Assembly: GCF_018320785.1 (NCBI RefSeq)
Contig: NC_054885.1
Location: 8,940,921-9,004,920, forward strand
From: Cheilinus undulatus
Taxonomy: Eukaryota > Chordata > Actinopteri > Labriformes > Labridae
DNA: 64,000 bases
Direction of reading: 5' to 3'
A program made the position numbers and the translations under genes. Position 1 is the first letter of the stretch; each line of letters starts with the position of its first letter. The notes under the pieces were generated by a model. It was not told the DNA's origin. It did no database searches and saw only the letters and a program-made list of their open reading frames with translations. Below, piece after piece: positions 12,059 through 41,569 of this stretch.

Positions 12059-12740
12059 TTTTGGGACATGTGCAATTCTAGTTTGTATTTTACGCGCTGT
12101 TTCATAAATGAGACCTTTTTACTTTACCTGAGAATTGTAATTTTGTGTTTATCATACCATGTTCGTACACTTACACTGTACTTCAGTTCTGTCAAAGTAT
12201 CTTATTGTGATGGAGAGCTGTTGGGTATGTATTTGTACTTTTACCCAAATAAATGAGTTTGATAAAATCCACAATATGGGATGCCAGGCCATTTCCTAGT
12301 TATGCAATCAGAGGCGCATAATGTCATCAAGGCCTTCAGAATCAGCGCTAGTGACTCCAGCACCTCCATTCAGCCAATGCTGGAGGAGAGGAGATGTACC
12401 TGCAGGTGAGGAAAAATTTGTGATTATTGTTTAGGATGTGTTAAAGTTGTTCTTTTTTTCTATTTGAAACAAAGTCGGTGTCCTCACCTACAACCTGTTG
12501 TGATTTCTGTGTTTGGCTCTTTTTGTCTCGACTTTTCTCCCTCTTAGCTGCTGAGATTGACAGCGCGGCCATCTTGCAAACACTGATCCTCTCCTCACTG
12601 CTTCCTGCTCCTGTTTGACCTGCTGCTACTGCTGATGACCCTCCCCCCTTTGCTGTTGGCTCTCCCTGAACCAGAGGAGTTACTGAACTGCCCGCCTGGT
12701 CGACTGCTGATTCTGTCATTGCTACCTGTACTGCTAAGTT
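12059..12740 (-). pseudogene. duplicated 3' end of the keratin-like gene
   Basis: This segment closely matches 43201-43940. It includes the end of the giant tail exon (MAALSISAAKREKSRDKKS), the following intron with its donor and acceptor, the last coding exon and the 3' flank. Compared with the parent it lacks about 65 bp in the 3' flank near 12284 and 14 bp inside the tail coding sequence near 12605. The 14-bp loss shifts the frame. Homology stops at 12742, where a DNA transposon begins. No rod-domain exons are seen upstream in the same orientation, so this is a dead fragment of a tandem duplication. Confidence 0.85.
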
Positions 12741-12742
12741 AA

Positions 12743-14106
12743 GGCCCTGTTTACGCGACAACATTTTTGGGTGAAAACTCAAAACTTTTGTAGCGTTTTG
12801 GCTGCCTGTTTACACAAGAATGGCGTTTTGGTGCCTGAAAACGGAACAATTTGGAAACGGGCTCCAGAGTGGAAGTTTTTCAAAACGCCCCCGCCTCCAT
12901 CTTCGTGTCAACGGGGAAAACGACACTTTCTGAAAACGTACATGCGCACTACGGCTGCAGTCAGCTGTCAAGCGCGAGTGTCACAGCACTCTGAACCGAG
13001 CCGTGGCAGCTCGGGTCTGATGTAGTCATCTGTGATTCAGCTTGTCGTCACAGACAGCTGGATTTAGAAAAGGGGACATGTTTTTCTTATTTGGAGACCC
13101 ATCAGTGCCAGTTTCTTTAGATAAAGGCATGCTATTAAATTTGGAAATGATTACTTTTCCCTTTTTTATTGATTGTCATGATAATCACCATCATCGTCGT
13201 CGCATGGCAGAGAAATTTCACGGCTCGTGTTAAATTATTAACACAAAAACCGCTTCGCTAGATCAGTCTTGTTATGAAGTAGACATCTGCTGAGAATAAT
13301 CATTTTTTCATGGACAAACTTAGCTCATACAGCCTTTAATCTCATGTGGATTTTCTCATAATGCTCCAGCTGCACATGAGTGCAGCTAGAGCCTTTTTCA
13401 GAAAAAATATTTCTATTTTCCTATATATCTGCTTATCGGAAATTATTTAGCCATTTTCTTTTTTTCTTTAAGTTTTAATAACTAACGTCAGCCTGTAGAC
13501 TCCCCTGCCTCCTCCTCCTCCACTGGCTGCATATCACTGTAGAGCTGATGGAGGAGACAGGATTGAAAAGATTCAAAAAGATAGTTAATCACTTCCAAGA
13601 AGAAGATAAAATTGAAAAAGGAAGTCGAAATATTGTTCTGAAAAGGCTGTCATTCTTTTACTGCACTAAAAGCAGGAAGCACTGCACTTTCTAAGAAAAT
13701 CCACGAGAAATTGAAGACTTTAGGAGAAAAATTTGTCCCTGAAAATCAAATTTTAGCGGATATCTTTGTTATAATAAGACAGGTCTTGCAATGCGTTTCT
13801 GTGTTCGTAAGTGCCGTAAAATTTTGCTGCTGCTCTACGATGCTGATGTGAAGGTGGATTTAATGATGAATAACTCTCATGCATCCGCGTATCATAAAAA
13901 TGTTGCATATTATCAAAAACACATGAAAAACAGTGAATGTGCACTGCTGTCCTTGTTGTAGAGACAGTGTTATGGTGCAGTAAATCACTTTACCACAGCA
14001 TTTCTGTGTTTCCTGCATTCTTGTGTAGATGGAGATTGTTTTTGACGTGGAACTTTTGGAGACGAAAACGGAAAACGAAGCAAAATGTTGTCGTGTAAAC
14101 ATGGTC
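12743..14106. mobile_element. non-autonomous DNA transposon with terminal inverted repeats
   Basis: The left end reads GGCCCTGTTTACGCGACAAC and the right end, complemented, reads GACCATGTTTACACGACAAC, giving about 24 bp of imperfect terminal repeat. Inner inverted similarity also exists: the CATGGCAGAGAAATTTCACGG stretch (13203-13222) resembles the complement of about 13815-13845. No transposase is seen. The element sits exactly at the breakpoint of the duplicated keratin tail fragment. I do not assign it to a superfamily with confidence; hAT-like is a guess. Confidence 0.65.
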
Positions 14107-19570: not shown

Positions 19571-20763
19571 AAACACAGCTTCAAATATCTGTAGGGACCA
19601 AAAAAGGAAAGGAAGAAAAGATACTTTCAATATATTGTTTTTCCTTAGCACTTTTCTGAATTTAATCAAACTTCTGGGGACTGGATGGGAAGCTGTGGGG
19701 GGCCTGATGTGGCCCCTATGCCTCCAATTGATGATCAGTGATGTTCTATGATTTTCTTAGCAAACAGATTCTTCCTGAACTTCACTGCCTCCTGCTGGCT
19801 ATATGTACAAGGGTTTTTTAGTTAAATTTATTTTTAAAGTCAAAGCCTTGTCTCAAAGTGTTCTGATTTCCTGATAGATTAAAGAATGCTTCTCTAACAA
19901 CTGGAAAAAAAGAGAATACATCACGACTAGCAAACCAGACTGAATGAAAGACTATAATATTGTCAATGTTATAAACAAAAGCATGTTGGTAAAGATGAGT
20001 CCATGGTGAATTCTGAAAAGTGGATTTTTTTAGATTTAAGTGAATGACACAATCTTCAGTACAGGCATGCAGAATAGAAGTCAGGATGTGACGACTGATC
20101 AACCAACTGAAGCTAAAACAAATCTGAACTTGTGAAAAAACAATTGATTAATCACTGACACAAAAACCTGAACACATTAGAGTACAAATAAAACAAAACC
20201 AAGGGTGTGATTCAACGGTAGCACAAATGACAAAAATGCTGACTTTTACATCTGAGGCTATATTAGATTTATTTAAATAACACTGTGCTGTGACTTTCTA
20301 CAGTTCTTTAGACCTAACGGATGAAACTCTAAAAAATCTTATCATTTCACTTATAAAGATCTTAACATTTATCTTTTGCAGAGTCTATTTGTATTAATGA
20401 TATGCAAAAATTCTACTCAGTCACAACATCTACAAAAGAACAGAGAAGAATGTAGTGGGAAGTCATGAGCAGAAGGCATTATGTTGCAGTTTCGTTACCT
20501 AAACAAACATAATTTTGGTCCAGTGTTAAACTCTCTTTACCAGCCGGATGAAATAAACATCATAACCCCAATCACTCACACAGTAATTTTTCCTTCAACA
20601 CCTGCTGAGTCAGACATCAGCTCACCAGCCTCCATGCTGAAAATATACTGGGGGCTGACAGGATAAAGTCTGAGTGAAAAATTTGTCTTTGTGTTCACAC
20701 ATGCAGCTCACCCTGAAAAAAATCGGGAAATATTCAAGAGTCTAGTGCGCATGTGAATTTGGT

Positions 20764-21651
20764 CTAACCAAAAATAGCTTTAAAGAGTCTGCTTGGATCA
20801 TTCTCAACCAACATTTTCACTGAAGATGTCATTCTTGTTTCATTAATGGTGTAGCTGTACTGCTGGTTCAGGTACTCAGCCTTCTGAGAGGATATTTGTG
20901 GGGATCCTCCCAGACAGGCAGCAAGATGGAGGGTAGCTTTCAGATTAGAGTAGTGGAGCACCAATGATAGAGCCAGAGTCACCACATAGAATGGGATAGA
21001 CTCCTCCTCTCCTGGCAGCATGAATGGAATGGTGACGCGATTTCTCCCAGGTCGACCATGTTTATCTTGTAGGAAGATAACACGTTTCCATACACCATCT
21101 TCGGGTGTCAAAGGACTTACATGGATGTTTGGGATCTTCTGGGCTCCAGCCTTCTTCATTGAGTTCCAGTGGTTGGGTAGGTTGGTGGGCTGGTGGTCTT
21201 TATCTGGAATTTCACAGCCTTTATCTTTTCTGCAGCTGAAGATCCTGTGCTGAGGTTGTAGGCGTCCTGTAGTGATACCATACGTAACATCAGCTATAAG
21301 AATGCAGTTCCATGGAGAATAGAGGATCACATCTTGGATTGTGGGCAGAGGGAGCAGACAGCTGGCTTGGATCAGGGGCTCTTTGATGGATCCATGTGCC
21401 ACAAAGATGATGTCAATGTGCTCTTTGTCTATCTTCTCTCTTTGCTTATCGATCTCCTCATGCAGGAAACCAAACATGTCAACAAGTTTGACGAATGACC
21501 CCGACTCTGAATTTTCCTTCAGCCATTCCCGCACAGCGTTGTCTTTGCAATGTTTCAGCACTAACTCCATCAGTGTCCTCCTTCGGATAGAGACCATCAC
21601 TTCTGCTAGCTCCTTGCACTTTTTTCTGTCAGAGGACGTGAAAACAGACAT
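20764..21651 (-). CDS. unknown fish protein, one exon, paralogue 1
   Basis: The 295-codon open frame starts at ATG 21651, directly after an in-frame TAG, and ends at TAG 20764. It is about 70% identical by eye to the paralogue at 31458-32375. I do not recognise the family. The first 60 residues look helical and charged. A strand-like segment IDIIFVAHG (79-87) is followed by DVILYSPWNC (107-116), a polar middle with several Cys and His, then a helix FYVVTLALSLVLH (221-233) and the strand ATLHLAACLG (239-248). The His-Gly and Ala-Cys pairs at strand ends recall the caspase/CHAT fold, which is my inference only. No signal peptide or membrane span is seen. It lies 750 bp downstream of an orphan APOL-like exon on the same strand. 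Its first paralogue-specific difference is loss of about 10 residues near position 23. Confidence 0.75.
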   Translation of the reverse strand: MSVFTSSDRKKCKELAEVMVSIRRRTLMELVLKHCKDNAVREWLKENSESGSFVKLVDMFGFLHEEIDKQREKIDKEHIDIIFVAHGSIKEPLIQASCLLPLPTIQDVILYSPWNCILIADVTYGITTGRLQPQHRIFSCRKDKGCEIPDKDHQPTNLPNHWNSMKKAGAQKIPNIHVSPLTPEDGVWKRVIFLQDKHGRPGRNRVTIPFMLPGEEESIPFYVVTLALSLVLHYSNLKATLHLAACLGGSPQISSQKAEYLNQQYSYTINETRMTSSVKMLVENDPSRLFKAIFG

Positions 21652-22398
21652 CTTAGTCTAATTTTGTTCAAAGTTCTGAGATATACCATGACAGCTGTTT
21701 CACTGAATCAGAGCCAGCACTGCTGGCTGTGGGAGAGCAGGTAGGTATGCATCCCATATGAAAAAAGCAGTGGTGGTGTTTTTTAAGGACGAGATATGTC
21801 ATGGAACTCATTGAGAGTGGACTGTCTTTAGATGATGAGTTCATTCAAGTTTCAGTTTGCCAGTGGCTTCTGTACTGTTGGTTTAGGCTGTAAAGATGCT
21901 AAACTAAAACATGTTCAGTCTCTAAGGAGACAAGTTTTCATGTTTCTGGACTCTCCGTCTCAGATGCTAGATGTGTCTTTTCATCTCAAACATGAGGAAG
22001 GTTTTTACATGGTGTACGTCAGTTAGGAGAACATGCTCCCCTCTCTGCTGGAGCTGACAGTGGAGAGGGGAGCGGAGGCCGCTCCACCTGTGTACAGGAG
22101 TTTGCTGCCTACCCCAAGGCTGCAAGCTCTGCTGCCCCCTTTACGGTTACTAGCAGTGGAGCTTCAAGTTCCATGCAAGTTATTTTTTTATGTTCTGATA
22201 TTGTACATCCTTCTTTCTTAAACTTGACTATCTTATCATGAATGCCATATATTACTGAAGTAACTTCCATTAATGTACAATAAGTTATAACAGCAAAAAT
22301 AAGTCTGTATGACTTTTGGTAATTTTGCATAAGACTGACAGAGACATTTAAATCTGATTATAGTTTGTATCTCCATTAGAAGATGTTGATCTTCTGAC

Positions 22399-22566
22399 TT
22401 ACTTTAATGTATCGAGTACTTTCTGAATGTTTGCAGAGGATGTCATCAGGTTTTCATCCATCTCTCTAAACCTCTCACTGCTCTCTGTCTCACAGTTGTC
22501 CACAGTAGCACAGTTGTAAATCAGCTCAGTGCCTGAGAACAGAATTCCAAAAGCTCCACGTAGAAC
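22399..22566 (-). pseudogene. orphan APOL-like last exon (copy 1)
   Basis: This 168-nt segment matches the second coding exon of the intact APOL-like gene (34717-34884) at the same length. It has a good acceptor (GTTGACAG) and an open frame of 55 codons ending in AAG TAA. It contains GILFSGTELIYNCATV and NCETESSERFREM, the APOL C-terminal region. The large first coding exon that should lie upstream is missing: sequence just past about 22600 matches the region upstream of that exon in copy 2 (about 36055). About 1.1 kb including the exon was therefore deleted. The gene copy cannot make an APOL protein, although the exon might still be included in transcripts. Confidence 0.8.
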
Positions 22567-23419
22567 CTGTCAACAGAGAAAAACGATGATAATTCATAAT
22601 AGAGGTTATCCTGGATTTATTATTTCTTTTGTCCATGATTCTTTATTGTGCCTTTTTAAAGCACACAGTATCTATTCTCTATGTTTCTGTCTGAGAAGAG
22701 ACGGTCTCTTCTCTCAGGCTCTTTCAACATTACTACTGAATCTTTGTTGTGTGATTATTTCATGGGCTATTTAGATCCACACAGAGTTTTTGTGTAACAT
22801 CTGTTTTTGTTGAGTTCATGTTGCATATCATTTCTTTGTATTCATTAATTTTGAACTATTGTTTATGATATTGTTGGTTAGATGTTTATTGTGTGCAGTA
22901 CTTCTAAATTGTCAATGTAAGTGTAAATCTGTAAATTTTACTGTCAAGTAAACAGTGAACTAAGGAAGAATAGCTTCCAGTGAATACTGAAGTAAATGAG
23001 CATTAAAATAAACAAACATATTTCATAATGTCTAACAATATTAACTACACAAACCTCTTTGTAGCTGTCTCCCACTTCTAAGTCATGGTTTAGACCAAAC
23101 TGGTGCAGTGCAGCATTTATTTAAATAATGATCTTAAAGTCAGGATCATAAGGTGGACACTGACTTTGAGTCCCAACTATAGACACTGTGAAGAATTATC
23201 TCTCATTGTGAAAACAGACCTTTTAGTAAAGAGGACAGTCTTTAGTGTATCTTGATTAAATTTTAAGCATGATGGAAAAAGGCAAAATCAGAATCAGCAA
23301 TCAGAATTCTGAGATTTATTGTGATTAAAAAAAATGAAAAAGTCCTTATTTTCACTAAATAGGCATTTATATGTTTATTTGTTTATTTATTCATTTTGAG
23401 AAAACAGAGGGAGAGGCAT

Positions 23420-23871
23420 CTGGCTGCAGCCCTCGAGCAAACCTCTACGCTGGGGTGTTCGGCTGGAGACCTCTACAGTGGGGCGAACCCTCTGCGCTTG
23501 GGCGTGACGTACATTACCCATGACGAAATTTCAGCTCTATCCGATGGCTGACAGGCTGACCCTAAATCTAACCAGTCGGGTTTTAATGCCTATATCTAAC
23601 CAGTCAGATTTAAACGCCTAAACCGAAGCAGTCAGGATTTAATAGCGTAGACTCATGGGTCGGCGTCTGCTACTGCACGGTCCAACGTAGGGGCTTTGCT
23701 AATGTGTCATAAGCACAGCGGTGTAGTCATGCTAACAACAGCTAACACGCTGCACGCCCCAGCGTAGGCTTGGGCGATGTACGTCACGCCCCAGCGAAGA
23801 GGTTTCGCCCCACTGTAAAGGTCTCCAGCCGAACACCCCAGCGTAAAGGTTTGCTCGAGGGCTGCAGCCAG
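23420..23871. mobile_element. MITE with about 65-bp terminal inverted repeats
   Basis: The left end begins CTGGCTGCAGCCCTCGAGCA and the right end is its near-perfect complement, with pairing over about 65 bp each side (23420-23487 and 23805-23871). The interior has no coding capacity. It is absent from the matching point of the second duplication copy (about 39950), so it inserted after the duplication. High end-to-end identity suggests a fairly young insertion. The superfamily is not clear. Confidence 0.8.
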
Positions 23872-24486
23872 ACCCTCTTGAACAGAGGTGATGTGTGTTT
23901 TATTAAACAGGATAGCTAATAAATAATCTATCCGTAGGATCAAACTACAGGTAAGGCAGTATGATTGATGCCTCTGCAAAAATCATGTTTATTCATTATT
24001 CAAACAGCTTTACACCACAAATCAGTATTTGTCTAAAGGAGCTTGACTTTTGTTGCATTTTGTTTGTATATTCTGTTTTTTGGCCATTTTGGCTGTGTTA
24101 AATGAATAAAGCTCAAATACACCAGAGAATATTAATTTTTAACACATTTTTGAATACTTGTATCAGTGTGTTAAATTAGCCTAAAATGGCTAAGCTATGA
24201 AATAAAAGATGAATTTGTTCCTTTAGACAAAAACTGCCCCATTGAAAACCACTGAAAATGTCATTTTTGATTCCACATTTATCTTAACTTAAACTAATCC
24301 ATTCATTGATGTTAAGATTTAATTTTGTACTACTGGCCTTCAGTTTTTAGTTTTTCTATTAGTCAACCAGATGCTGCTACTTTTTCCCCATCCTAAGCTT
24401 GGAAGAAAACCTCACACTCTTTACTGTTTTCTAAAAGGGTACCTTACTGCTGAAATGTTTAGTGTGTGCTACTTTGATGTCGGTTA

Positions 24487-24605
24487 ATGGTGGGTGTGGG
24501 TGTGTGTGCCTGCATGCGTAGGTTGGGCTGGGTTAGGGTGGGTGTGGGTGTGTGTGTGTGTGTGGTTGTGGTGGGGGGGTGGCGGGGAGGGTCTGTGCGT
24601 CTCTC
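24487..24605 (+). repeat. GT/GGGTGT-rich low-complexity tract
   Basis: The tract is made of GGTGTGGGTGTGTG words followed by a G-rich run. It generates open frames on both strands that are composition artefacts. Confidence 0.8.
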
Positions 24606-25069
24606 TTTCATGTCCAGCTTCATGCACACTCTGTGTTTACTCAATAATAAAAACAAGTTACAGCAGTTAAAGGTTTTTTTTTTCAGTGAAAAAACAGTGG
24701 GGTTATGGAACTATACCAGCATTTAAAGGGCAAAAATTTCCAAAATATAGTTATTATTTATTATGTATATTTCAGGCTGAAGTAGTTTCACAAGATCAAC
24801 TCATTTAAAGTGGAAAAAAAAAAATATTCATCACATTTTTACAGCCGTTTTGTGGGGAAGTGGCTGATTTCTGCCCAAAGGAACAAATTAAGTTTGATTT
24901 TAAAAGATCTCTTAAGGGTTAAAAACTTCAAAACCACAGAACAATATCTACCAAATGACAAAAAAAAAGCTTCCACTAAGGAAAGCCATAAGATATTTAT
25001 GAAATAGCTATTTAGGTGAAGAAAGATAACTCATTAACTAAAAATATAATATTTTTTTATCCAGCTTAC

Positions 25070-25250
25070 CTGTGTTGGAGCATCTCAGGGTCTAGTGTTA
25101 GAAAAATGTAAGTGTCTAACTCGCAGAGTTGGTGTTTTTATGCAGTGAAACTGGATGTGGAACTGATGGCGTGTTTGTTTTTCTATTGGCTGCTTTGGTT
25201 TAAAAGTTTTGATAAAGATGATAAAACTGAAAGTAAAAGAGAAACAAACG
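25070..25250 (-). promoter_or_regulatory. 5' UTR exon and promoter of copy 1 (decayed ISRE)
   Basis: On the minus strand a donor CAACACAG/GTAAGC ends an exon at 25070. Upstream are a CCAAT word (rc of 25178-25182) and, at 25229-25245, GAAAGTAAAAGAGAAAC, an interferon-response-like element with weakened GAAA spacing. The same block in copy 2 (40278-40452) keeps a better ISRE and a TATA box that has changed here to TTTTAAAC. No coding sequence is seen in the exon. Confidence 0.5.
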
Positions 25251-26792
25251 TCGCTGGTAATCCCCTGCATTTTCAAAGCCATAATGAAAGGTTAGACAGA
25301 TACAAAATGTTTTCTGTCCATCCAAACTCAATCAGCTGTTAGGTAAAAACATCAAAAATAGAAATGAAAAAGTGTTTCTAGATTGAATTCCCCTCTGCTT
25401 AGAATAGGAATTTAGATATTCCTAAGGATGAAATGCAGACTCCACATGTAGAGGCCCTGTCTGACTGAGATTAGAACCTTCTTGTGTGACCACACTGCTC
25501 ACCAACACTGCACAAATCTTTACAATCTCCTACTGTAAGAGAAACAGGAAATGTGACATTTGTAATTGTTGGAGCAGACTGCCAGAAGTTTTCAACATAA
25601 AAATATCAGCAAAATGTTGTTTCTAACATGTAAGAAAATGAAACCAATGGTCTGTTTCAGTCCTGACAGAAATCCCCATGGTTATAAAACTCTGGTAAAC
25701 CACCTTTTATGTTGTCATAAAGTAGGTGTGTTTCAGACCACAGGCCACTGCCAAATTATGCCACAGCCAAACTCTTATCACTTGGATTTCCCCAGTGTAT
25801 AATGGAGTCACCTCTACAAGCTAATATGTTTATCTTAATACAACTATTCTAACACTGATTTTACATCACAAAATATTGCAGTATTTAGCTCTTATTGCTT
25901 CTTTGAGACAGTGGTACAGGTTTGAGGTCAGAGTTCAAACTGACTTCCTTTGCTACCTAGATAAACATGAACTTTAGCATCTGTTGCACATGTAACACCA
26001 ACTGTACTATCAAATGTAATTAATGGTCAAAGCTGGAGTGGGAGTCATTTTCAGCCCTGGAGTTTCATGCCTCAGATACTTTAGTTCACAAACTTTTACT
26101 GGAGTTATTTGTAATTGGGGTGTATCATGTCTATCATTATAATTTTCAACTTAATAATTTAAAAAAGCTTTTAAAGTCACTTATAAGATTCAGGTGTAAA
26201 TACTCATGATGATAATTATCTTACTATCTCATAATTAACTCACCATGGAAGTTTCTTTTAAATCAAAGACAGCCGTATAGTTTTATATTGCTTATTTTTA
26301 CAAGTCTGATATCATTACAACCTTTTTCTCTGGCATCTCCCATCATGGGAGAGATAGAGACACACAGAGAGAGAATGGAGTTTAGTGGGGGGATGTACTG
26401 AAACACTGATTGTTTGTGACTTTCCATATAAATCTAAATGCCACTGACGAAGCAGTGAGATCAAACTGAGTCTTGCCCAAGGGCATGTAACTGCAGGAAC
26501 TCAGGACTGAACCCAAGACCTTCTGATTGAAAGAATTCCGACTCAACCTAAAGATCCACAGTCACTGTAAGAACGACATGAGTGATAGCATTTGAATGTC
26601 AGTGGGTCTACTGTAACCTCTGTGCAACTTGCACTGCACAGGAAAGTGTAAACGTATAAAAACTTTCCAAAGGACTCCTTCAGACTTCAGTAGTACCCCT
26701 AAGAGCCCAAGAGTACATCATGATCTGACAGAAGAACTCCTGAAGTCTGTCAGTAAGACCATTTATGTCATTGAAACTGAAGACATCACTAC

Positions 26793-26874
26793 ACTGCAAG
26801 GAGAACTTGAACCTGCGCAGGGAAAACCCATTTAGATTTCAAGTCCAACGCCTTAACCACTCAGCCATCACAGC
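26793..26874 (-). pseudogene. tRNA-Ser(UGA) pseudogene
   Basis: The sequence aligns along its whole length with the tRNA-Ser at 27395-27476, including GGACTTGAAATC in the anticodon arm and GGCTGAGTGGTTAAGG in the D arm. The 3' half of the acceptor stem (CTTGCAG) no longer pairs with GCTGTGA, and the T arm reads GGTTCAAGTTCTC. It is probably inactive. Its flanks match those of the other tRNA-Ser copies. Confidence 0.8.
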
Positions 26875-27394
26875 TCATATGTGATACAGTCCCTCCCCGC
26901 CTAGCAGGAATTCCCCCAGTTCTCCTGATTAGTCTCTCTGAGCTTGCTTATTGTTTTCTCATCAGAGCATTGTTCTTAATATTGAAAAGTAGGAGTTAAC
27001 ACTGTTGTAGTAAGTGAAGAAAATGTAACATTAGATGTAACAGCAAATTAGGCCTTTCCAGAAGCTGTAGCAGAAATTTGGTGGTGCTCTATAAAAGAGT
27101 TGATTTGCAAACCAATTCTGCTGACTGTCCACTCTAACCTCTCAGTTCTCAAGCCAACAAGTCAGCCTACCTACCAGAAACCTGCCAAACCAGTTAACCA
27201 ATCAGTAACCATTGTGCAAGGTGCACGGGAAAGTGTGAACTTACAAAGACTGAAAGGCATGCTTTGACTTTGGCACAGACAGAAGGAGCTTCTCAGAGTG
27301 TGCAGGGTTGTTACTGTGCCATTTAATTCATTGGAATTTCTTTTTTAAGAGGACCACATCAAACCTATAAATTAAATAAATCCCCAAGTTGAAA

Positions 27395-27476
27395 CGCTGC
27401 GAGCAGGGTTCGAACCTGCGCGGGGAAACCCCATTGGATTTCAAGTCCAACGCCTTAACCACTCGGCCATCGCAGC
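27395..27476 (-). tRNA. tRNA-Ser(UGA)
   Basis: The 82-nt class II tRNA has acceptor stem GCTGCGA/TCGCAGC with discriminator G, D arm GGCCGAGTGGTTAAGGC, anticodon loop CTTGAAA (anticodon TGA), a long variable arm GGGGTTTCCCC and T arm GCAGGTTCGAACCCTGC. All stems pair. It has no run of four or more T within about 40 nt downstream, so termination would rely on a more distant or weaker signal. It lies between the two copies of the APOL-locus duplication. Confidence 0.9.
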
Positions 27477-30890: not shown

Positions 30891-31457
30891 GATGCAAAAT
30901 GAGAGTGTTCCTGACTGAAAATAAATGTACATTAAAATGGATTGAAAAACAAAATTAAATGGAAAAACATACTTGATTGGTGAAGATAAAGAAACCTTTC
31001 TCTGCATTCTGTACAACATCGATAGCAAAATGATCTCAATAAAAAAAAAAAAAACAGGTCTAACAGTGTTTTCATCTTTACACTTGTAAAAAAAAAAAAA
31101 AAAACACTAAACAAACAGAATTACAATATATGATAATGGCGTCTCTTTTTTCTTTCACATCAGTGTTACACACAGTTTAACAAGATCACAATACCAGCAA
31201 CTGAGCCGAGAACATTCTGGCAAGAATACTGAGGAAGTCAAATGATGTGCATGGAGATCATTTTAGGACTGTGTTTTATCTTTGGTTAATTTTGGGAATA
31301 TTTTTAAGGCCACTTAACACATCAGCTCACAGGACTTCATGCCAAAAAATGTTGGGGGCTAAATAATGAAAACTTCAACTGTTTGTGTTCACACATGTAG
31401 TTCAGCTCTGGGAAATCCAAGAACTTTTCAGAAGTTGTGTGCATATGTGAAAAGAGT

Positions 31458-32375
31458 TTAACAATGAGTCAGAGCTTTAAAGAATCCACTGAGGTCATTA
31501 TTATTCAACATTTTCAGCAATGATGTCATGAATGTGCCGTCAATAGTGTAGCAGTACTGCTCGTCCAGGTAATCTTGATCAGACAGTGTTGTAGCTCTAC
31601 CCAGACAGGCAGCGAGGTGGACAGTGGCTTTCAAACTGGAGAAGTGGAGCACCATAGATAGGGCCAGAGTCACAACATAGAATGGGATTGTGTCTGAAGA
31701 ACCAGTCTCTCCTGGCAGCATGTACGGAACAAGGATACGGTTCCTCCCAGGTTGACCTTGTTGAACTTGTAGTTCAACAACCCGTTTCCACGCGCCATCG
31801 TCTGTAGTCAGGGGACTTACATGGATGTTTGGGATCTTCTGGGCTCCCGCCTTCTTCATTGAGTTCCAGTGGTTGTGTAGGTTGGTGGGCTGGTGGTCTT
31901 TATCTGGAATTTCACAGCCTTTATGTTTTCTACAGCCAAAGATCCTGTGCTGAGGCTCTATGCGTCCTGTGGCGATAGCATATGCAGCATCAGCTATGAG
32001 AAGGCAGTTCCATGGAGAATAGAGGATCACATCTTCGATTGTGGGCAGAGGGAGCAGACAGCTGGCTTGGATCATGGACTCTTTAATGCATCCATGTGCA
32101 AGAAAGGTGATGTCAATGTTCTCTTTGTCTATCTTCGTTCTTTTCTTATTGATTTCCTCGTGTAGGAAACAAAACATGTCAACAAGTTTGAAGAAAGCTC
32201 TGGACTCTGAATTTTCCTTCAGCCATTTCTGCACAGTGTTGTCTTTGCAGTGTTTCAGTGCAAACTCCATCAGTGTCTGTTTTTCCTTGGAGCTCCTGTT
32301 GCTGTTTCCGATGGAGTCCCTCACTTCTGCCAGCTCCTTGCACATTTTTCTGTTGGAGGAAGTTAAAACAGACAT
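31458..32375 (-). CDS. unknown fish protein, one exon, paralogue 2
   Basis: The 305-codon open frame starts at ATG 32375, with in-frame TAG three codons upstream, and is uninterrupted. It is the paralogue of the gene at 20764-21651 and keeps the same landmarks: IDITFLAHG with His94-Gly95, VILYSPWNC (116-124), HRIFGCRKHKGC, the segment HWNSMKKAGAQKIPNIHVSPL (in two parts around 169-189), a helix FYVVTLALSMVLH (232-244) and TVHLAACLG with Cys257. I cannot name the family. The spaced His-Gly and Ala-Cys at strand ends suggest a caspase-like Rossmann core, offered as inference. It is probably cytosolic: there is no signal peptide or membrane span. It lies downstream of the intact APOL-like gene on the same strand. 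The last APOL exon's donor is in the wrong phase to splice into this frame, so it should be a separate coding unit, perhaps sharing the promoter through alternative splicing. Confidence 0.8.
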   Translation of the reverse strand: MSVLTSSNRKMCKELAEVRDSIGNSNRSSKEKQTLMEFALKHCKDNTVQKWLKENSESRAFFKLVDMFCFLHEEINKKRTKIDKENIDITFLAHGCIKESMIQASCLLPLPTIEDVILYSPWNCLLIADAAYAIATGRIEPQHRIFGCRKHKGCEIPDKDHQPTNLHNHWNSMKKAGAQKIPNIHVSPLTTDDGAWKRVVELQVQQGQPGRNRILVPYMLPGETGSSDTIPFYVVTLALSMVLHFSSLKATVHLAACLGRATTLSDQDYLDEQYCYTIDGTFMTSLLKMLNNNDLSGFFKALTHC

Positions 32376-32738
32376 TTCAGTCTAATTCTTTTCAAAGTTT
32401 TAAGCAATACCACCACAGTTGTCTCACTAAATAGGAGCAGGTCTGTTTACCAAGAGAATAATTTCTACGAGGCATTTCTATTTCTTTCTTCTTTATTTTT
32501 AATAGAAAAATGATTTAAAAAATCTATTTTTGATCATGTTTCTCACTCAGAGGTAGAATGTTTTGTACTTATTTTTCTATGAACAACATTTTTTGACATG
32601 TAAATAACCATCAATTTTTTTAATGTTCTGACTTGCCTATCTTATGGATAGCATACATTGTTTAGGTAACTTCCATTAATGCACAATAAGTTATAATGTA
32701 ACAGCAAAAATAAGTTAGTGATACCTCTGTGTAACTTA

Positions 32739-34650
32739 CTATTTACTGTTAAACTGAGACTCAACAGAAACATGACTAGTAATCTTTTCCTGTGCAACAA
32801 CTAAAACCTCAGTTTTATCATCATTGAGCTGTAAGTGATTGTCAGCTATCCAGAACTTTTTAAAATGTGTACACTCAAGAAGGCTGGACAGCTTTGAAGG
32901 GTCACTGGACTTGAATGTGAAAATGAGTTGTAGATCATCTGCATATAGATGATAATTTATGTTAAAACTCTGTATTTTTTTTTTCCAAGGGGCATCAGAT
33001 AAAGAGGAAAAAGCAAGGGCCCCAGGACAGAGTCCTGTGGTACCCCACATGACAGTGGAGAGGACTCTGAGACACAATCATTAAAAATCACTGAAAATGT
33101 TCAGTTAAAAAGATAGGATGAAAACCCTTCTAATGCTGTGCCTGGAATGCCAACTCAATCATGAAGCCTTTTTTCCATTATACAATGGTCAACAATAGTG
33201 TTGTACTCAAGACCACACTACTCGAGACCAAGACTTGCCCGAGACCAGAGTGCAACAAGACCAAAACAAGACCAAGACCTCTGAGGGTCGAGACCGAGTC
33301 AAGATTGAGATTGAGACAAGCTGAGACCGAGATAAGACCATAAAAATCAATTTTAAAAAACCATGACAAGGTTGAACAGTTAAAGAGGATTCCCTCTATA
33401 ATTTTAGTTTTCCTTTTAACAGATTTCACAGATATGAAGAAGCTGTCTGCAACTCTTTCAAAGCACAACATGCAAAAATCTTAACTCTTAACAAATTTGT
33501 TCAACTAACTTCTTGTAAAAAAAATAAATCCTTGCATGTATTGAAAAGCTACTGACAAATCATTTAAATATAAGTTTAGATATCTGAAAATGAGATGTTT
33601 ATCTAGATTAGTCAGGTGAATGAGGCCTAAAGGAAGAGTTTAGAGGTATTTCTGATGTCTGAGTTTTTGCAGGTGTGGCTATTTGTTGTTTTAGTAAGTA
33701 TCTCTCCTTATTATCACATTAATGAAGACAAAGAATAGCAAATCATTGCTGGTCTTGACCGGTCTTGGTCTTGAGACTGGTCTCTAGACCACAATTTGAG
33801 TGTCTTTCTCGGACTCAAGAGCATTTTTACTCGGTCTTGTCTCAGACTGTCTGGACTTTGGAATTTTCCATCAAGACCGTTCTCGAGTACTACAACACTC
33901 GTCAACAGTGTCAAAAGCGGAGCTTATATGAAGGAGAATCAACACTGAACAATCCCCTGTATCACACGACATTAAAATCTCATTTGATCCCCTCAAAAAA
34001 GAAGTCTCAGTAGAAATCCTTTTCCTAAAATCAGACTGAAACTTGCCAAATATAATGCATGTCTCCAACCAAGCTAACAATTGATTTGCCACTGTCTCCT
34101 ACAGGACTTTGGAGAAAAAAGGAAGTTTGGATTTTGGCCTATAATTCATGGGTAGAGATGGATCTAAACTGGCTTTCTTTAGAATGGGTTGAAATATGGG
34201 GGGACACATCCTGGGAATATTAAAGCATTTATGATGGTTAAAACCACAGGAGTGATAACAGGCAAGACTTTTAAAAACAGAGTAGCTGGAATGATATCCA
34301 GGGGGGAAGAGGAACATTTGTTTTGCCTATCAAATCCATCAAATCTTGTAATGTTATAGGGTGGAAAGAGTCCAGAGTGACAGTAGCTTGAAAGGAGCTC
34401 TCACTAGGTGGTTGAGGGGTGTGTACCAAATTGGACCTTAGATCCTCTACTTTTTGAACAAAGTAGGATAAAAAAAATATTGCAATCATCAGAATTAAAA
34501 TTTGATGATGTGGAAAGTGGTGGGGAAACCATGTTATTAATGATGTCAAATAAAATTCTGGAATTTCTTCTTGAGGAAGAGATTAGAGTGGCATGGTCAT
34601 TTGTTCGGGCTTCTTGCATTATTTCATTGAAGGTTTGCCAGAGACCGTAG
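32739..34650 (-). mobile_element. L2/Rex1-type LINE fragment
   Basis: On the minus strand, parts of a non-LTR reverse transcriptase can be read in order: an N-terminal link (34404-34619), LKKASLDPSLPMNYRP (about 34150-34200), the LILLHISSAFDTVD strand (about 33920-33970), and further on HLYADDLQL (32915-32950) with DKTEVLVV after it. These are the conserved RT blocks of the CR1/L2 group. Stops and frame changes show it is dead. It lies between the APOL-like gene and the one-exon gene in copy 2 only, so it inserted after the duplication. A MITE interrupts it. Confidence 0.8.
33196..33900. mobile_element. hAT-like MITE inserted in the LINE, 8-bp target duplication
   Basis: The ends are inverted: left TAGTGTTGTACTC, right complement GAGTGTTGTAGTACTC. 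The body is rich in GAGACCAAGAC words. Flanking octamers GTCAACAA (33188-33195) and GTCAACAG (33901-33908) are a target-site duplication with one difference, as hAT elements make. The LINE sequence resumes on either side. Confidence 0.85.
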
Positions 34651-34716
34651 GACTGACAGAGAAATTAAGGTCAGATAAAAGTTTGTATCACCATTAGAGG
34701 ATGTTGATATTCAGAC

Positions 34717-35908
34717 TTACTCAAGTGCAGCAAGTTCTTTCTTAATGTTTCCAGAGGATGTCGTCAGCTCTGTAGCCATCTCCCTGAACCTCTTACTGCT
34801 CTCTGTCTCACAGTTGCTTACAGTAGCACAGTTGTAAATCAGCTCAGAGCCTGAGAACAGAATTCCTAAAGCTCCACGTGTGGCCTGTCAGCAGAGATAA
34901 ACAACAGTAATTAATAAAAGAGATTTTGTCATCACACTGTGACTTATTTAACACACACACAGACATAGTTAACATGAGTTTGGTTTCAGAAGAACAAGTG
35001 CTCAAAAAATCCTCAAATTCATCTTCTTGCTGTCAACTAGTTTTGTTTAAGATAATTATGCCTTCACACTGGTGTTAATCAGGGCTAGAGGCATCATGTT
35101 TTTGGGTTGTCCTTCTGACTGACGTGGAGATAAGCTTTTTTCTTAATCATGTGAACATTCATTTTAATATACGCTTATTTGTTAGACTGGTACTTACATA
35201 TTTGAGTGCCTTTCCTGAAGCTTTTGATCCAGCTGCCTTCATGGCTTGTTTCGATGCTGTGGATGCCACTGAAGACTTCACCACCTTAGAGATTGCTTTT
35301 CTCCCTGCAGGTGCCGTTTTTGGTAAGAATTTTAAAACTAACTTATAAACAAATGAGCCTGCTAGACGAAAACATGTACCCAAAAAAAGGTCTGATTTTA
35401 CAAAGTTTGCTACCAATTTCAGGAAGCTGACATTCACATCTACCTTCAGCCCATAGCGCCTTGCCATGGCTCTTAGGATTCGATCTGTTACATACTCTTC
35501 GCGAGAAACTTTTAAGCGCTCAGCTTCCATTGCCAGTTCCTCCATAAGTGCCTGGATTTCTTTTTCACATCTCCTGAGCTTCTCTGAAATCTTTGCCTCT
35601 TTCTTGGACTCTTCTGAGGTGACAGCATCTACAACCTCTGAACCCACATTGATACTCAAACCCAGTAATGAAGCAGTTTTGCCTGTGACAGCCAGGAGAG
35701 GGACTATTGTGCCTCCTGTGCAGAATGCTGCTGTTAACAGTGCAGCAGAGCCAACTACAGACACAACACTTCCAGCCACAAGTGTTTTATTAACACCCAG
35801 TCTCTGCTGCTCAAGCTCAGCGGCTAGCAGAATAAATTCACCAGCACATTCTTTCTGCAGATCAGCTAAAAAGTGGATCTTGTCAACAAGTTCTTCAGCA
35901 GCATCCAT
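34717..35908 (-). CDS. apolipoprotein-L-like protein (APOL domain)
   Basis: Two coding exons: 35198-35908 (ATG at 35908, donor TAT/GTAAGT) and 34717-34884 (acceptor GCTGACAG). Both joins are phase 0 and give 292 residues ending GAG TAA. Residues 1-40 are amphipathic. Residues 42-88 hold the hydrophobic hairpin typical of APOL proteins (VVSVVGSAALLTAAF, then TGGTIVPLLAVTG). After it come charged helices (98-140) and a second hydrophobic stretch (174-196). The last exon has GILFSGSELIYNC followed by a charged helix, as in the APOL C-terminus. There is no signal peptide, so it is probably intracellular and membrane-associated. APOL proteins are colicin-like and, in mammals, often interferon-induced. 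An upstream UTR exon with an ISRE-like motif lies at 40278-40452; the acceptor TTTATTTTAG before the ATG fits a spliced leader. The stop codon lies inside the sequence GTAAGT, so a longer spliced form is possible. Confidence 0.8.
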
Positions 35909-36989
35909 GATGTGATCAGCAATGAGAGGTCAGGATCTAAAATAAAGACAGACACACATCAGGGATATTGTATTTGCCCAAATAAAGCAGTGCACTGTGA
36001 GCTTTTTGCAAAATGCTTAACAATCATCGTCCACTTGGAGTTGTATGGCTCATGTCCTGGATTCATCATTTCTTTAGTCAGTGATTCTTTATTCTACCTT
36101 TTCAAAGCCTGAAAGCATCTATTCTCTGTCTTTCTGTCTAAGAAGAAGCAGTCTCTTCTCTCAGGCTCTTTATGGTTTACTCTTTAGAAGTGTTTTTCTC
36201 ATCTGAATTAAGGTATGAAGACCAAAGTGGGGAAAAAAATCCACTGAGCCATATTTTGATTTTAGGATTTATTAAAAAAAGATTTGCATTGTCAATAAAT
36301 ATAAAGTTTTTAAATAATCTAGATTAATTTATTGATAGATATTTATTTAGGCTTAAAAATTCTAATAATTGTACTGATAACAATTTTTATAATTTGTGTC
36401 AGTGTGAACACATCAATGTATTAATGCCAGTGTTATCAAACTCCAGAGTAAATGCATCAGCCTCACAGAATAACCCCATGAATTTCATGTGATTATGTCA
36501 TGTACTGCAGTTAAGCTAAAATAGTTCGGCATTTGCTGAATACCAGCCATTGTAGCATCTGCTTGCATTGAAAAAATAATAGAAAATAATACCTCTTAAA
36601 TTTTCATTGCACTTTAAAAATATGACAGCTCATAGAAGAAGTCAATCCAATTTGCAACAAGTAATATCAAACAATGTAGTCATTTTGTACATGCACTCCT
36701 GCATATCATATTTAGAAAATGAAGGTGAATTCTGTACAAAACCAAAAGACATCTCAATAATTATTTTATAACTAAAATAAACTAACTAAGCAACACAGTA
36801 AAAACACACATACTTGTAGCTTTGAATGTAATAACGTTAGTGTTCTGTAAATTGATTGCTTCTTATGAATTAAAAAAAACACTGGGAATCGATAATATGG
36901 ATTACAGGTTGGTTAAGCCCGTAGTATCAATAAATCAATAAGTGCTTCTATAGTTGCTCATATTATAAATCACTGTTAATTCTTGTTTG

Positions 36990-37300
36990 ATTTCAGCCAT
37001 GGAAAACTTCAGAAGTGGTGCCAGTACCAAAAAAAAAAAAAAAAAAAAAAAAAAGCCTTCCACTGGTTAGAACATCAAACCAATTAGTCTGTGACTTGAT
37101 TTCAAATTTTCAGCATGCATACTGAAAAAAATTTCCACAGCCACTGCCTTGACTCAAATGGTTGATGACTGATTCACAGCTATAGAGGAAAAGTTGTGAA
37201 GTCTGATTTTTCTGCTGCTTTTGATATTGATCATAAATTATTGTTGACAAAACTTGAAAGTAATGTTTTTTTCTAAAAGCACATTATCATGGATGAATAG
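36990..37300 (+). mobile_element. decayed LINE reverse-transcriptase fragment
   Basis: Forward-strand pieces of a non-LTR reverse transcriptase can be read: WKTSEVVPVP near 37015-37045 and SDFSAAFDIDHKLLLTKL near 37200-37255. A run of 26 A lies at 37029-37054. It is a dead fragment in the intron of the APOL-like gene and absent from copy 1. Confidence 0.6.
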
Positions 37301-37846
37301 TTAATCAACTGATAGAAAACATACTGTGTATTTTAACAGCAGAAGCTTTTTAAACATGCTAACATAATTCAGACCTTGTTTATTTATGAAATGTCAGCAA
37401 AGTTTATAAAAACCTCTCATGGTTTGAAGTTAGAAATAGATTATTTTATTCATTGATGGTTTCTTACAAAACATTTGTAAGAAGTAAACCATTTTAATTT
37501 GTACAAAAATCTCTCCTTTAGCTCAGATGTACACCATTATCCAACAAGGCATGCTGTTGGAGGTTTTTTTATTTCACCTAAAGCAAAAACCAAGATCAGT
37601 GCAATGTAAGAATGGAATTCACTTACAGTTCCTTTGTGTAATGTCTCTTTTGTTTTTATTTTGCATTGTGTGTCATTTCTTTTTATTTATTCTTTTTTTA
37701 ATCTCATTAATTATATATGGTATTTTTTTTGGTTTAGGTGTTTGTTGTGTGTAATATCTTTGAATTGTGATAAACAATGTCAGTGTGATTCTGTAAATTT
37801 TATTGTCACAATGTAAACAGTGACCCAAGGAAGAATATATATCCAA

Positions 37847-38190
37847 CCCATATCCACCCCACCTCCCCTCTAACCCCGTCTCACTGTGGTCTCAATGCAG
37901 TATCATCTATAATCTTGTTTTTGCACCTTTTCTACCATTTTGCACAGCTCAACAAGCTGCTATCACATTGCACTAAAACCTGCAAGTTGATTATGCTGTA
38001 TGTATATAGGTTGTTTCAAATAGAATAATTCCATTTGTCTTTATTTTTCTTTATCTTATTTTGTAAATAATACTATCTCTATTTTTTTTTTTACGTCTGC
38101 ATTGTTCTTGTTTATTTGTTGGTAAGAGGGAAATGTTTTTTTGTTCTTTGTATGGCCACCATTTAAGAAAATTGACAATAAAAAATCTTG
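37847..38190 (+). mobile_element. retroposed 3' end, probably SINE/LINE tail
   Basis: In copy 1 the sequences GAAGAATA and ATAGCTTCCAGTGA are adjacent (about 22970); here about 340 bp separates them. The insert ends in ACAATAAAAAATCTTG, like the A-rich 3' end of a retroposon. The family is not identified. Confidence 0.55.
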
Positions 38191-38323
38191 AATAGCTTCC
38201 AGTGATTGCTGAAGCTAATGGCCATCCAAATAAATGAACAAACATATTTCATAATATATAAAAATATTAACTACACAAACCACTTTGTAGCTGGCTCCTA
38301 CCTCTAAGTCATGGTTTAGACCA

Positions 38324-39433
38324 GTGGTTCTTAACTGGTGGGTCACAACCCACTTTTGGGTCGCGGACCCGTTTTCAGTGGGTCGCGGACCTTTGCCTGG
38401 GGGAAAAAAATTATATAATAAAATGCATGCAGTGCTTTTATTTTGAAGGGAAGGTTTTGCAGCAGTTCTATCTATTCCCACTCTGTTCCAGTAGATGGCG
38501 GTAATGTATTGCAATGATAATTGACACTCACAGCTGCATTTCACACACAGACTGTAGAAAGAATTGGACAAACCCCGTGTGACATCAGTCGTCTGCTTAC
38601 AACAGGCGGACTCAAACGGTTGTTGAAGCCAATCCATGGAGGCTTCCATATTGAAACTGCGGCCGAACTGAACTTTGGATCGACCTAAAGGCCCGCCCAC
38701 TGTCAATCAAATGAGAGCACCACCTTCTTGAGGTGCTCCCTTTTCCGCGGCGCTGAGGCTGATCACCCACACCTGAGACTGATCTCCAGTTAAGCTCTGC
38801 TTGAAGAAGGCTTCAGCCTCATGCCTCAGCGCCAGAAAACTGATTTCCTCTCACAGTGGTACTTCGACTTGCTCAGGCTCACACTCAGGATCATTTCGAG
38901 TAATTTTCCAGTGAACGTTTTGTGACCAGTGTTTTAACCGTGACTCTCCTCTTCTTTTCCAGTGCCTCACTCCTTCCTCACGACAGCCCCAAACCCAGCG
39001 CACTCTCTCACTACTCTGGACTCATGGATTCCCTCCCCTTCCTGCACCTTATTATTGTCAATAAAGCTGTTAAAGCTTGTCATCCTCGTCTGCCTTTGGG
39101 TTCAACACACCTCCACACCTAACATCACAGTAGTGTGTTCAATCCACCCTGCCAAACCTGGGGTCCCTGCTTTCTACAGCTGAGAGGCAGAGTGGATACA
39201 GATGCATTGTTTTTGGACAGATTTACATGCAGTGTGAGAAATATCATGGATTTTGAATTTCAGATGAAAACTAAATTACATTTAGTCTAGTTTTAGTCAT
39301 TTTTACGAAAACTAAATTTACTTTTTGTCAGTTTTAGTCATCACAGATCTGTTTTTGTTAGTCTTAGTCTAGTATTTGTCATGTAAGAAAAGGCTGTCAA
39401 CAAACATTTTTAGTCAATGAAATAAACACTGGT
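38324..39433. mobile_element. composite insertion specific to copy 2
   Basis: In copy 1, GGTTTAGACCA runs directly into ACTGGTGCAGTGCAGC (about 23090-23110). Here about 1.1 kb separates them. The insert begins with a hAT-MITE-type end (GTGGTTCTTAACTGGTGGGTC) and ends with TTTTAGTCTAGTTTTAGTC words and AAATAAACACT, the repeat also seen at 18.06-18.43 kb. The sequence at 39131-39180 matches 18276-18330, so a further element (38735-39129) was inserted into that repeat. Confidence 0.65.
38735..39129 (+). mobile_element. possible solo LTR, Ty3/Gypsy type (fossil)
   Basis: The segment contains an AATAAAG signal late in it, then a TCGTCTGCCTTTGGGTTC stretch and an end in ACATCACA, which resembles the 3' part of fish Gypsy LTRs. 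It interrupts the TTTTAGT repeat. No internal retroviral genes are seen next to it. Its left end is uncertain. It postdates the block duplication. Confidence 0.35.
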
Positions 39434-40277
39434 GCAGTGCAGCATTAATTTAAATAATAGATCTTAAAGTCAGGATCATAAGTTGGACATTGTGACTTTA
39501 TATGAATCCCTACTATAGACACTGTGAAGAATTGCCTCTCATTGTGAATACTGGCCTTTTAATAAAGATGCCAGGTTTTTGTTTTGTTTTGTTTTGTTTT
39601 GTTTTAATTACATTCTAAGCATGATGGTAAAAGACAATAATCTGGTCAACAACCTATTTTATTGTCATAAATTAGGTGTGTTTCAGACCACAGGCCACCG
39701 CCAATTTATGCCACAACCAAATTCTCATCACTTGGATTTCCCCGGTGTATAGTGGGGTCCCCTCTACAACCTAATATAGTCATCTCAATACAACTATTGT
39801 AAAAATGATTTTACATCAAAAATCACTGCAGTATTTAGCACTTGTTGCTTCTTTAAGGCAGCTGAACAGGTTAGTGAGCATATAAAAGTCACTTATAACA
39901 AACAGAACTCTGTGGCTTCTTTCAGTTTCATTTTCATTAAAGAGGCATTTTTGAGAATATTTGGAGAAACCTGAGGTGTGTGTTTTATCAAACATGACAG
40001 AAAATAAATAATCTATCCATAGGATCAAACTAAAGGTAGGGCAGTATTATTGATGCCACTACGAAATTGTTTTTTCAAACAGCATTTTACCACAAATCAG
40101 CATTTGTGAAAAAGGGGCTTGACTTTTGTTAAGAACTTCAAAACAGTAGAACAACATCTACCAACTGAGCAAAAAATGCTTCCACTAAGGAGAGCCATAA
40201 TATATTGATGAAATAGCTATTCAGGTGAAGAAAGATAAGTCATTATTTGAAAATTTTATTTCTTTTATCCATCTTAC

Positions 40278-40452
40278 CTGTGTTGGAGCCTCTCAGGGTC
40301 TAGTGTTAGGAAAATGTTTGTGTCTAACCTGCAGAGATGGAATTCTTATGAAGTAAAACAGGAGGTGGAACTGACGGCGTCTTTGTTTTCTATTGGCTGA
40401 TTTGGTTTATATATTTTGATAAAGATGATAACACTCAAAGTGAAACAGAAAC
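40278..40452 (-). promoter_or_regulatory. TATA/ISRE promoter and 5' UTR exon of the APOL-like gene
   Basis: Minus strand: an ISRE-like element lies at 40437-40452 (plus strand AAAGTGAAACAGAAAC, with the GAAA-NN-GAAAC core), then TATATAAA at 40406-40413, a CCAAT word at 40392-40396, and a leader exon ending at donor CAACACAG/GTAAGA (40278). About 4.3 kb further the acceptor before the APOL ATG follows. The arrangement suggests induction by IRF/STAT factors. Confidence 0.55.
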
Positions 40453-41569
40453 AAATGTTGCTGGAAATCCCCTGTATCTTTTAGAAAAAAAGAGAAGATT
40501 GGTCTACTTGGTCATGTCCATATTTTATGTTATCTTTATTCCTACTTTATTTTTCTTTAAAATTGTCCTTTATCATGTGCTGTAGACAGTTCTGACGTTT
40601 TCTGGTGCTTTCCCTGTTTAACCAGCAAGCTCAGCAGCCTACTGCTGTGGTTTATTCAGAGGGGGAGAATAAGGAAGTAGAAAGACATCATGTCACGCGG
40701 GGCAGACAAGCACAGTAAGACAAAAATCCCCCCAAACAGGAGAAGTGATCAGATCAAGTGTTTATATGGATGCTGAGCCGAATGAGGACCAACATGAAAC
40801 ACCCCTCTAGTTCAGAATTAAATTTCATACTGAATGAGCCGGATCAGAAGATTTCCATTTTACATGCCAGTGGCTCTACTGTAACCTTTGTGCAAATCGC
40901 ACAGGAAAGTGTGGACATCATAGTCTTTTGTAAAATAAAAGCAATATTTATAAAATTTCCACTGAGCACAATTGCACCTTCTATGTGTTTCTATTGCAGG
41001 ACTTTTTGGCATGAGCCTCAGAATTCTCGTAAAATCTCATCTCACGAGACTCCGCTGCAAGTAAGATGGACGCTCAAAACTTGTTGCATGTCGGTACGGT
41101 TATGATTACATCTACAGTGTTGCCTTGACAATTTTTTAAAAAAGATGAAGGCACAGGTGATAGCTCAGAGTCAAAGTCTGTATGTATGGTAAAAGCCACA
41201 TATAAGTGTGTAAGTATGTTAAGAAAAGTCTCGGTCTTCTCTTCTGTCCATACATACTGCACCATGAACTGGTAAAGTGACACAGTATGTTACGTCCTGT
41301 GACGTGGAATTGTGGAAAAAGTGTTTCTATTGAACTTCTGCAGTATATTTCTATATTGGAACGTCTGAAAAAACACCTCATGTAAGCATAAAAACTTTTC
41401 AGTGACATTTGAGAGGTTTTATGAAAGGTGTTTCCATTTCCAGTTTTTTATTCTATTTAGATTTTGTGCATTTCAAAGGTTAATGGAAATGCAGCAACTG
41501 TGGCCAATTGTGTTTTTGGAATCTTTTAAGAGAAATGTGTGTGGTTCATAAATCAAGCCATATTACAAC

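Follow-up and report, generated by a model that had tools for sequence, protein, structure and literature searches.

A candidate gene fusion of ApoL-like and Stv-like parts behind an ISRE-like promoter in Cheilinus undulatus

We analyzed a window of 64,000 nucleotides from the genome of Cheilinus undulatus (C21:8940921-9004920) and found that an open reading frame (ORF) of 305 aa on its minus strand (31458-32375) is most likely the last exon of a larger spliced gene, not a gene of its own. With modest confidence, we favor a reading in which this gene fuses an ApoL-like membrane-binding half to a Stv-like Cys/His domain and encodes an interferon-type, membrane-targeted effector. The original prediction had treated the ORF as a protein-coding unit; the ORF is present, but most likely as a terminal exon, with its first approximately 9 codons probably belonging to an intron.

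A second ORF, of 295 aa, lies on the same strand at 20764-21651, and the two (copies g1 and g2, respectively) are paralogous, as had been claimed, with 213 of 304 residues identical. Both contain the predicted His-Gly pair and the Cys of the LAACLG strand end at the predicted residues (His94-Gly95 and Cys257 in g1; His86-Gly87 and Cys246 in g2), and a further invariant His, overlooked by the original prediction, is located 4 residues ahead of the Cys, in the motif HLAAC (His253 in g1 and His242 in g2). An HG followed by AC 140 to 180 residues on was seen in 451 of 20,000 shuffles of the protein, so that the motif alone is weak and its conservation across copies carries the case: when checked among homologues, as had been proposed, the Cys, the Gly, and the two His residues proved invariant in an alignment of the 6 copies found in this genome. 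The family had been described as unrecognized, and neither window ORF indeed matched any family in a Pfam search. A PDB sequence search with the exon C protein (see below) returned no convincing solved relative, and no relatives of the fish protein were found in pattern scans of viral contigs and genome contigs or in phage and plasmid searches. Weak matches to ZnuA, PIN, Opp3B, LeoBC, Tn4430 transposase, phrog_16662, Dyp_perox_C, Mis12, and STX6 were judged to be due to chance.

The proposed gene comprises three coding exons on the minus strand, preceded by an untranslated one. Exon A (35198-35936) has the acceptor TTTATTTTAG, an ATG at 35908, and the donor TAT/GTAAGT in phase 0, and would encode the ApoL-like glycine-rich and helical half, the C-terminal helical part of which falls in exon B (34721-34884; phase 0 in, phase 2 out). 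Exon C (31458-32349, stop codon included) corresponds to the ORF less 26 bases of probable intron and begins after the acceptor CTTCCTCCAACAG/A in phase 2. It contains the Stv-like domain, which was placed by homology with copy g5 at 31596-32120 and includes the codons of His94 (32094-32096), His253 (31617-31619), and Cys257 (31605-31607). The 5′ untranslated exon (40278-40335) has its 3′ end at 40278, with the donor CAACACAG/GTAAG, whereas its 5′ end is an estimate only. Exons A, B, and C of g1 join in phase into a frame of 588 codons without a stop, with both donors reading GTAAGT, in phases 0 and 2. The same A-B-C order and phases are found in copies g5 and g6, where the joined frames span 621 and 620 codons, respectively, and the exon A homologues ahead of these two copies are 34% to 35% identical to that of g1 over residues 1-164. 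Because the splice structure of g1 recurs independently in g5 and g6, the first residues of the g1 ORF, MSVLTSSNR, are probably intronic. An acceptor of fitting phase is present at the same place in all 6 copies, and upstream of exon C, the copies g1, g2, g4, g5, and g6 each have exon B or a homologue of it, with a fitting donor phase in the four copies checked (g1, g2, g5, and g6). All 6 copies also have an in-frame ATG 26 to 29 bases ahead of the acceptor, which could serve as an alternative start. The APOL-like neighbor of the original prediction thus exists as an ApoL-like sequence, but the joint frame of 588 codons makes it probable that it is the gene's own 5′ coding exon, and the evidence points to one spliced gene in place of the suggested pair of separate proteins.

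At least 6 copies of exon C, all on the contig of the window, were revealed by a search of the entire genome, which comprises 1.17 Gb in 46 contigs, whereas tblastn within the 64-kb window found 2 copies only. The two window copies form a tandem set of four with g3 (8935126-8936010) and g4 (8920705-8921571); g5 and g6, with exon C 49% to 51% identical to that of g1 in the genome search and 46% to 48% in the alignment of the 6 copies, lie on the opposite strand at 8.17 and 8.20 Mb, approximately 0.8 Mb away. A genome search with g5 recovered the same 6 copies; its single additional match, interrupted by stops (E 0.65), was attributed to chance. Exon C of g5 and g6 (from C21:8166330 and 8204538 onwards) carries a Cys-rich insert, CCGCQCGKDCDGDCECGCGCCC, between the Stv-like halves, which is absent in g1 to g4.

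The tandem copies differ in the exons that they retain. Copy 2 has the Stv-like exon C′ (20764-21625, minus strand; codons of His86 at 21394-21396, His242 at 20926-20928, and Cys246 at 20914-20916), exon B′ (22403-22566, minus strand; phases as in exon B), and a 5′ exon (25070-25125, minus strand) that ends at 25070 before the donor GTAAG and whose 5′ boundary is an estimate. When the copy 2 region (20614-25922) was compared with that of copy 1 (31319-40480) using blastn, the matching pieces were mostly in the same order, with 22330-22607 corresponding to 34648-34925 and 22609-22724 to 36055-36171. Between these two pieces, 1.1 kb of copy 1 (34926-36054), including exon A, has no counterpart in copy 2, where the place of the missing stretch is 22607-22609. 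No exon A homologue was detected at g2, g3, or g4, and exon B was not found at g3; these copies may be either functional or decaying. For exon C, dN/dS was 0.36 to 0.54 in 13 of 15 pairs (the codons of g1 to g4 include the first nine, which are probably intronic), with weak or no constraint for g3/g4 (0.79) and g5/g6 (1.09, at a dS of 0.02). Exon B of g1 and g2 was under no constraint (dN/dS of approximately 1; 0.18/0.18).

Other elements were also noticed in the window. An intron of copy 2 contains an inverted-repeat, MITE-like element (23430-23860, by eye), and ORFs at 2302-3225 (plus strand) resemble remnants of a Tc1-type transposase by eye. On the minus strand, 43612-57372 is an intermediate-filament gene resembling, by eye, type I keratin; its tail ORF, rich in Ser and Gly (1,110 aa, 43612-46944), has its end repeated at 12444-12809. 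Six tRNA-Ser genes form two groups, at 26792-27476 and 48267-49943 (minus strand), and exon-like ORFs at 61638-63155 (plus strand) resemble an FCS zinc-finger protein, for example MBTD1.

Judged from its sequence, the half encoded by exons A and B is ApoL-like. The ApoL family of Pfam (PF05461) was found at 16 places in this genome besides the g1 to g6 family; 10 of these loci were fetched, and 7 proteins from them served as the comparison set. An hhalign comparison of exons A and B of g1, g5, and g6 together with these seven proteins yielded a probability of 92.9 and an E of 3.7e-7 over 104 columns, and none of 25 column shuffles reached the score. For single copies, g1 gave a probability of 6.7 and a score of 27.3, and g5 gave 33.9, with 0 of 25 shuffles reaching the result in either case. 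In Pfam, ApoL was the best match of exons A and B of g5 (E 5.6e-5; 23.1 bits, under the cut-off of 25.9), with families of the coiled-coil type close behind (STX6, 2.7e-4); with full-length g5, Mis12 was just ahead, and ApoL was not listed in the search of g1. Human APOLs are interferon-induced, and APOL proteins are pore-forming or membrane-dissolving defense proteins. The fish gene shares with the ApoL family a glycine-rich hydrophobic stretch followed by helical parts, as well as an interferon-type promoter, but scores under the Pfam cut-off and continues into an exon of approximately 297 codons, and we know of no APOL with a following exon of this kind. Elsewhere in the genome, an ApoL C-terminal exon (L059:4417-6114, corresponding to C13:10953417-10955114) continues in one frame of 565 codons into a long tail rich in Lys, Glu, and Arg, a further case of an ApoL extended at its C terminus, and a cluster of ordinary ApoL genes lies at C21:10.06-10.13 Mb, on the contig of the window.

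The domain encoded by exon C is probably related, if remotely, to the Stv domain of bacteria (PF21527). A consensus of the Stv pattern gave a match to this family (E 6.5e-32) and was then used as bait, yielding 10 Stv loci, 3 in Streptomyces plasmids and 7 genome loci, which, coming from one bait, constitute a narrow sample; the same bait found none in phages. Eight of the loci were aligned, leaving out L003, a near-duplicate of L002, and the truncated L010. In a Pfam scan admitting E values of 10 or less, 4 of the 6 fish domains hit Stv (best E 0.0095), leaving 2 copies unmatched, g1 among them; Stv was the sole Pfam family to match more than one fish domain, the one other being Dyp_perox_C, in 1 of 6. 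The match of g5 covers positions 2-119 of the 121 in the profile (E 0.016), with 16.4 bits versus a cut-off of 24.2. Profile comparison of the fish and Stv domains using hhalign gave scores of 24.2 to 24.4, reached by 0 of 40 and 0 of 60 shuffles, at a probability of 7.8% to 12.3% and over the first 47 columns only. A chained alignment scored 33.5, narrowly above the maximum of 33.2 in 300 shuffles; under stricter gaps, the VHxAAC block alone was aligned and 1 of 300 shuffles reached the score. In a search of 12,012 sequences with an HMM built from the eight aligned bacterial domains, the six fish proteins took ranks between 29 and 302, behind the best shuffles, and searching this genome with PF21527 gave 0 matches, as was the case for the control genomes.

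At the level of individual residues, the two His and the Cys of the HG and HxAAC motifs are present in all 6 fish copies and in all 8 aligned bacterial Stv domains. The two groups further share a strand that precedes HG, a “P..T..V.hY(S/T)” stretch, PN before the second strand, and a helix ahead of (V)HxAAC. They differ in that the fish domain belongs to a vertebrate gene, is approximately 65 residues longer, falls below the curated cut-off, and is carried by ApoL rather than by Rhs or eCIS cores. A literature search recognized no ApoL-Stv fusion among the matches listed, and, as far as this literature goes, the fusion is a form of ApoL gene that had not been described.

In bacteria, Stv ends a larger Rhs- or eCIS-like protein at 7 of the 10 loci, 2 of which were assigned by Pfam (L005, where Stv follows RHS_repeat, and L002, where it follows eCIS_core) and 5 by eye (the Rhs-like L001, L004, and L009 and the eCIS-like L003 and L007). 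Pfam searches of carrier pieces matched no family for L001 and Stv only for L009. At the other three loci (L006, L008, and L010), Stv resides in short ORFs of 145 to 174 codons, with no carrier seen. To characterize the neighborhood, ORFs of at least 80 codons within 1.8 kb downstream were scanned at 9 loci, leaving out L003, and six ORFs, picked by eye, were run in Pfam: a DUF7919 gene lies downstream at 6 of the 9 loci (L001, L005, L006, L008, L009, and L010; E 2e-8 to 4e-39) and was not seen within 1.8 kb of L002, L004, and L007. A toxin tip followed by an immunity gene is the established layout of polymorphic toxins, and the arrangement suggests that Stv and DUF7919 may form a toxin-immunity pair; a literature search found no paper naming this pair. 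The C-terminal domain of the fish protein thus has a likely relative that occupies the toxin position in proteins with Rhs or eCIS_core carriers and has a small gene linked to it, as in polymorphic toxins, whereas the fish gene is a host gene without a delivery module, and toxicity is putative on both sides.

Upstream of the tandem copies, we found the ISRE-like promoter that the original prediction had claimed. A block of approximately 355 bases (40128-40480 in g1) is present at all four tandem copies, the others being 82% to 87% identical to g1, and contains an ISRE-like element, a CCAAT-type box, a TATA-like stretch, and the 5′ exon ending in CAACACAG/GTAAG. In copy 1, the ISRE-like element lies on the minus strand at 40437-40455, with the exact core GAAACAGAAAC at 40442-40452 on the plus strand, and is followed, as placed by the alignment of the four promoters, by the CCAAT-type box AGCCAAT (40392-40398, minus strand) and the TATA-like stretch (40343-40351, minus strand). 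The corresponding features of copy 2, likewise on the minus strand, are at 25230-25248, where the element is degenerate (GAAAGTAAAAGAGAAAC), and, from the same promoter alignment, at 25185-25191 (CCAAT box) and 25135-25143 (TATA-like stretch). The place of the element is conserved in all four tandem copies, and the exact core GAAANNGAAAC occurs there in g1, g3, and g4. The window contains four occurrences of this core where 0.99 would be expected, and 1 of 100 shuffles reaches 4; only one of the four matches is the promoter site, so that the case for an ISRE rests on position and conservation. Neither the promoter block of the g1 to g4 type at g5 and g6 nor an ISRE core in the 3 kb upstream of exon A of g5 was found.

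The ISRE-like element implies that interferon or infection probably switches the gene on. We infer interferon induction, membrane targeting, enzyme activity, and an immune role of the fusion protein from these sequence features, and the following course of events can be envisaged. Upon interferon signaling or infection, the ISRE-like promoter would be turned on and the fusion gene expressed. The ApoL half would insert into the membrane of a microbe, of its vacuole, or of a host organelle and bring the Stv-like domain to that membrane, where the latter would act as a Cys/His hydrolase or transferase through His94, His253, and Cys257. Bacterial Stv relatives possibly act likewise when delivered at the tips of Rhs- or eCIS-type proteins. 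The products of g2 to g4, for which exon A was not detected, may be soluble Stv-like proteins that act as competitors or regulators, or these copies may be decaying. In its full form, namely an interferon-type ApoL half that delivers an enzyme resembling a bacterial toxin tip to membranes, with the copies lacking the membrane half acting as competitors or regulators, this scheme is speculative, and we put it forward tentatively. The immune effector guessed at in the original prediction has gained from the ISRE-like promoter and the ApoL-like half, which make such a role plausible, but the accompanying notion of a pair of proteins is not supported.

Several other readings of the locus have to be weighed against a membrane-targeted fusion enzyme. 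The Stv-like domain might be a binding or scaffold module without enzymatic activity, which recognizes a microbial or host partner and in which the His and Cys residues hold a metal or the fold. Pfam names Stv a “putative adhesin,” no article on the activity of Stv was among the matches listed in our literature searches, and the Cys-rich insert of g5 and g6 would suit metal binding; however, the position of Stv at the end of Rhs- and eCIS-like proteins, with DUF7919 next to it at most of the loci scanned, is typical of toxin enzymes, and two His and one Cys have been kept from bacteria to fish, which leaves this a credible but rather unlikely alternative. That the original prediction was right about a caspase-like core appears improbable; the domain would then be a protease of the caspase/CHAT clan that has diverged strongly and has its His half separated from its Cys half by a long insertion. 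The order of elements does agree, caspases and CHAT proteins having a strand ending in HG, then a helix and a strand ending in AC; in the fish domain, this order was assigned by eye, and the two residues concerned are invariant in the 6 fish copies and 8 Stv domains. Nonetheless, no caspase (PF00656) or CHAT (PF12770) family was among the Pfam matches of the six fish domains, the PDB search gave nothing convincing, and the His-to-Cys distance, 163 residues for g1 and 97 for the Stv domain of L001, exceeds the approximately 40 to 50 residues of caspases, the spacing in the fish protein being about three times as long. The proposed profile-profile comparison, run with five CHAT and four caspase-family (C14) sequences from plasmids, returned no in-register match: fish against CHAT scored 11.6, which is noise (26 of 40 shuffles reach it), and fish against C14 scored 16.9 (1 of 40), out of register with the motifs. 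For Stv, the corresponding scores were 13.7 with CHAT (4 of 40; 11 columns at HG) and 18.6 with C14 (1 of 40; out of register with the motifs). The positive control, CHAT against C14, scored 27.7 at a probability of 12.1%, with 0 of 40 shuffles reaching it, so that the method is able to see the caspase clan. Caspase/CHAT membership is not supported by these searches and was set aside, although exon C may share a very remote common fold with these proteins.

Two further alternatives concern the identity of the gene itself. An ApoL-like gene might adjoin an independent single-exon gene starting with MSV, and both the in-frame ATG ahead of the acceptor in g1 to g6 and the failure to detect exon A at g2 to g4 would fit such an arrangement. 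Against this, the phase-compatible acceptor shared in position by all 6 copies, the exon B homologues upstream of five of them, with a fitting donor phase in the four checked, and the recurrence in g5 and g6 of the in-phase A-B-C splicing seen in g1 led us to reject separate ApoL and AHG genes as the main reading; we regard them as very improbable, and use of the ATG is more likely as an alternative start in g2 to g4. About equally improbable, and in our estimate the least likely, is that the family has already been described under another name as a fish interferon-induced family, such as gig1 (grass carp reovirus-induced gene 1). Like the genes described here, gig1 is a multicopy, interferon-linked family: it is fish-specific and interferon-stimulated, with three neighboring copies in salmon (PMC12247413). 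It is set apart, by description only, through its exon plan and protein length, as the salmon gig1-like genes consist of one small and one large exon and encode 222 to 240 aa, and the word “apolipoprotein” occurs 0 times in the main text of that article (PMC12247413).

A fusion of an ApoL-like half and a Stv-like domain thus remains the reading that we favor, at the strength given above. If it is true, it would illustrate how an immune protein acting on membranes can acquire an enzymatic weapon, and the little-studied “putative adhesin” Stv would gain a role open to testing, namely that of a Cys/His toxin whose immunity protein is DUF7919. Natural truncations are already available in the tandem copies that have lost exon A.
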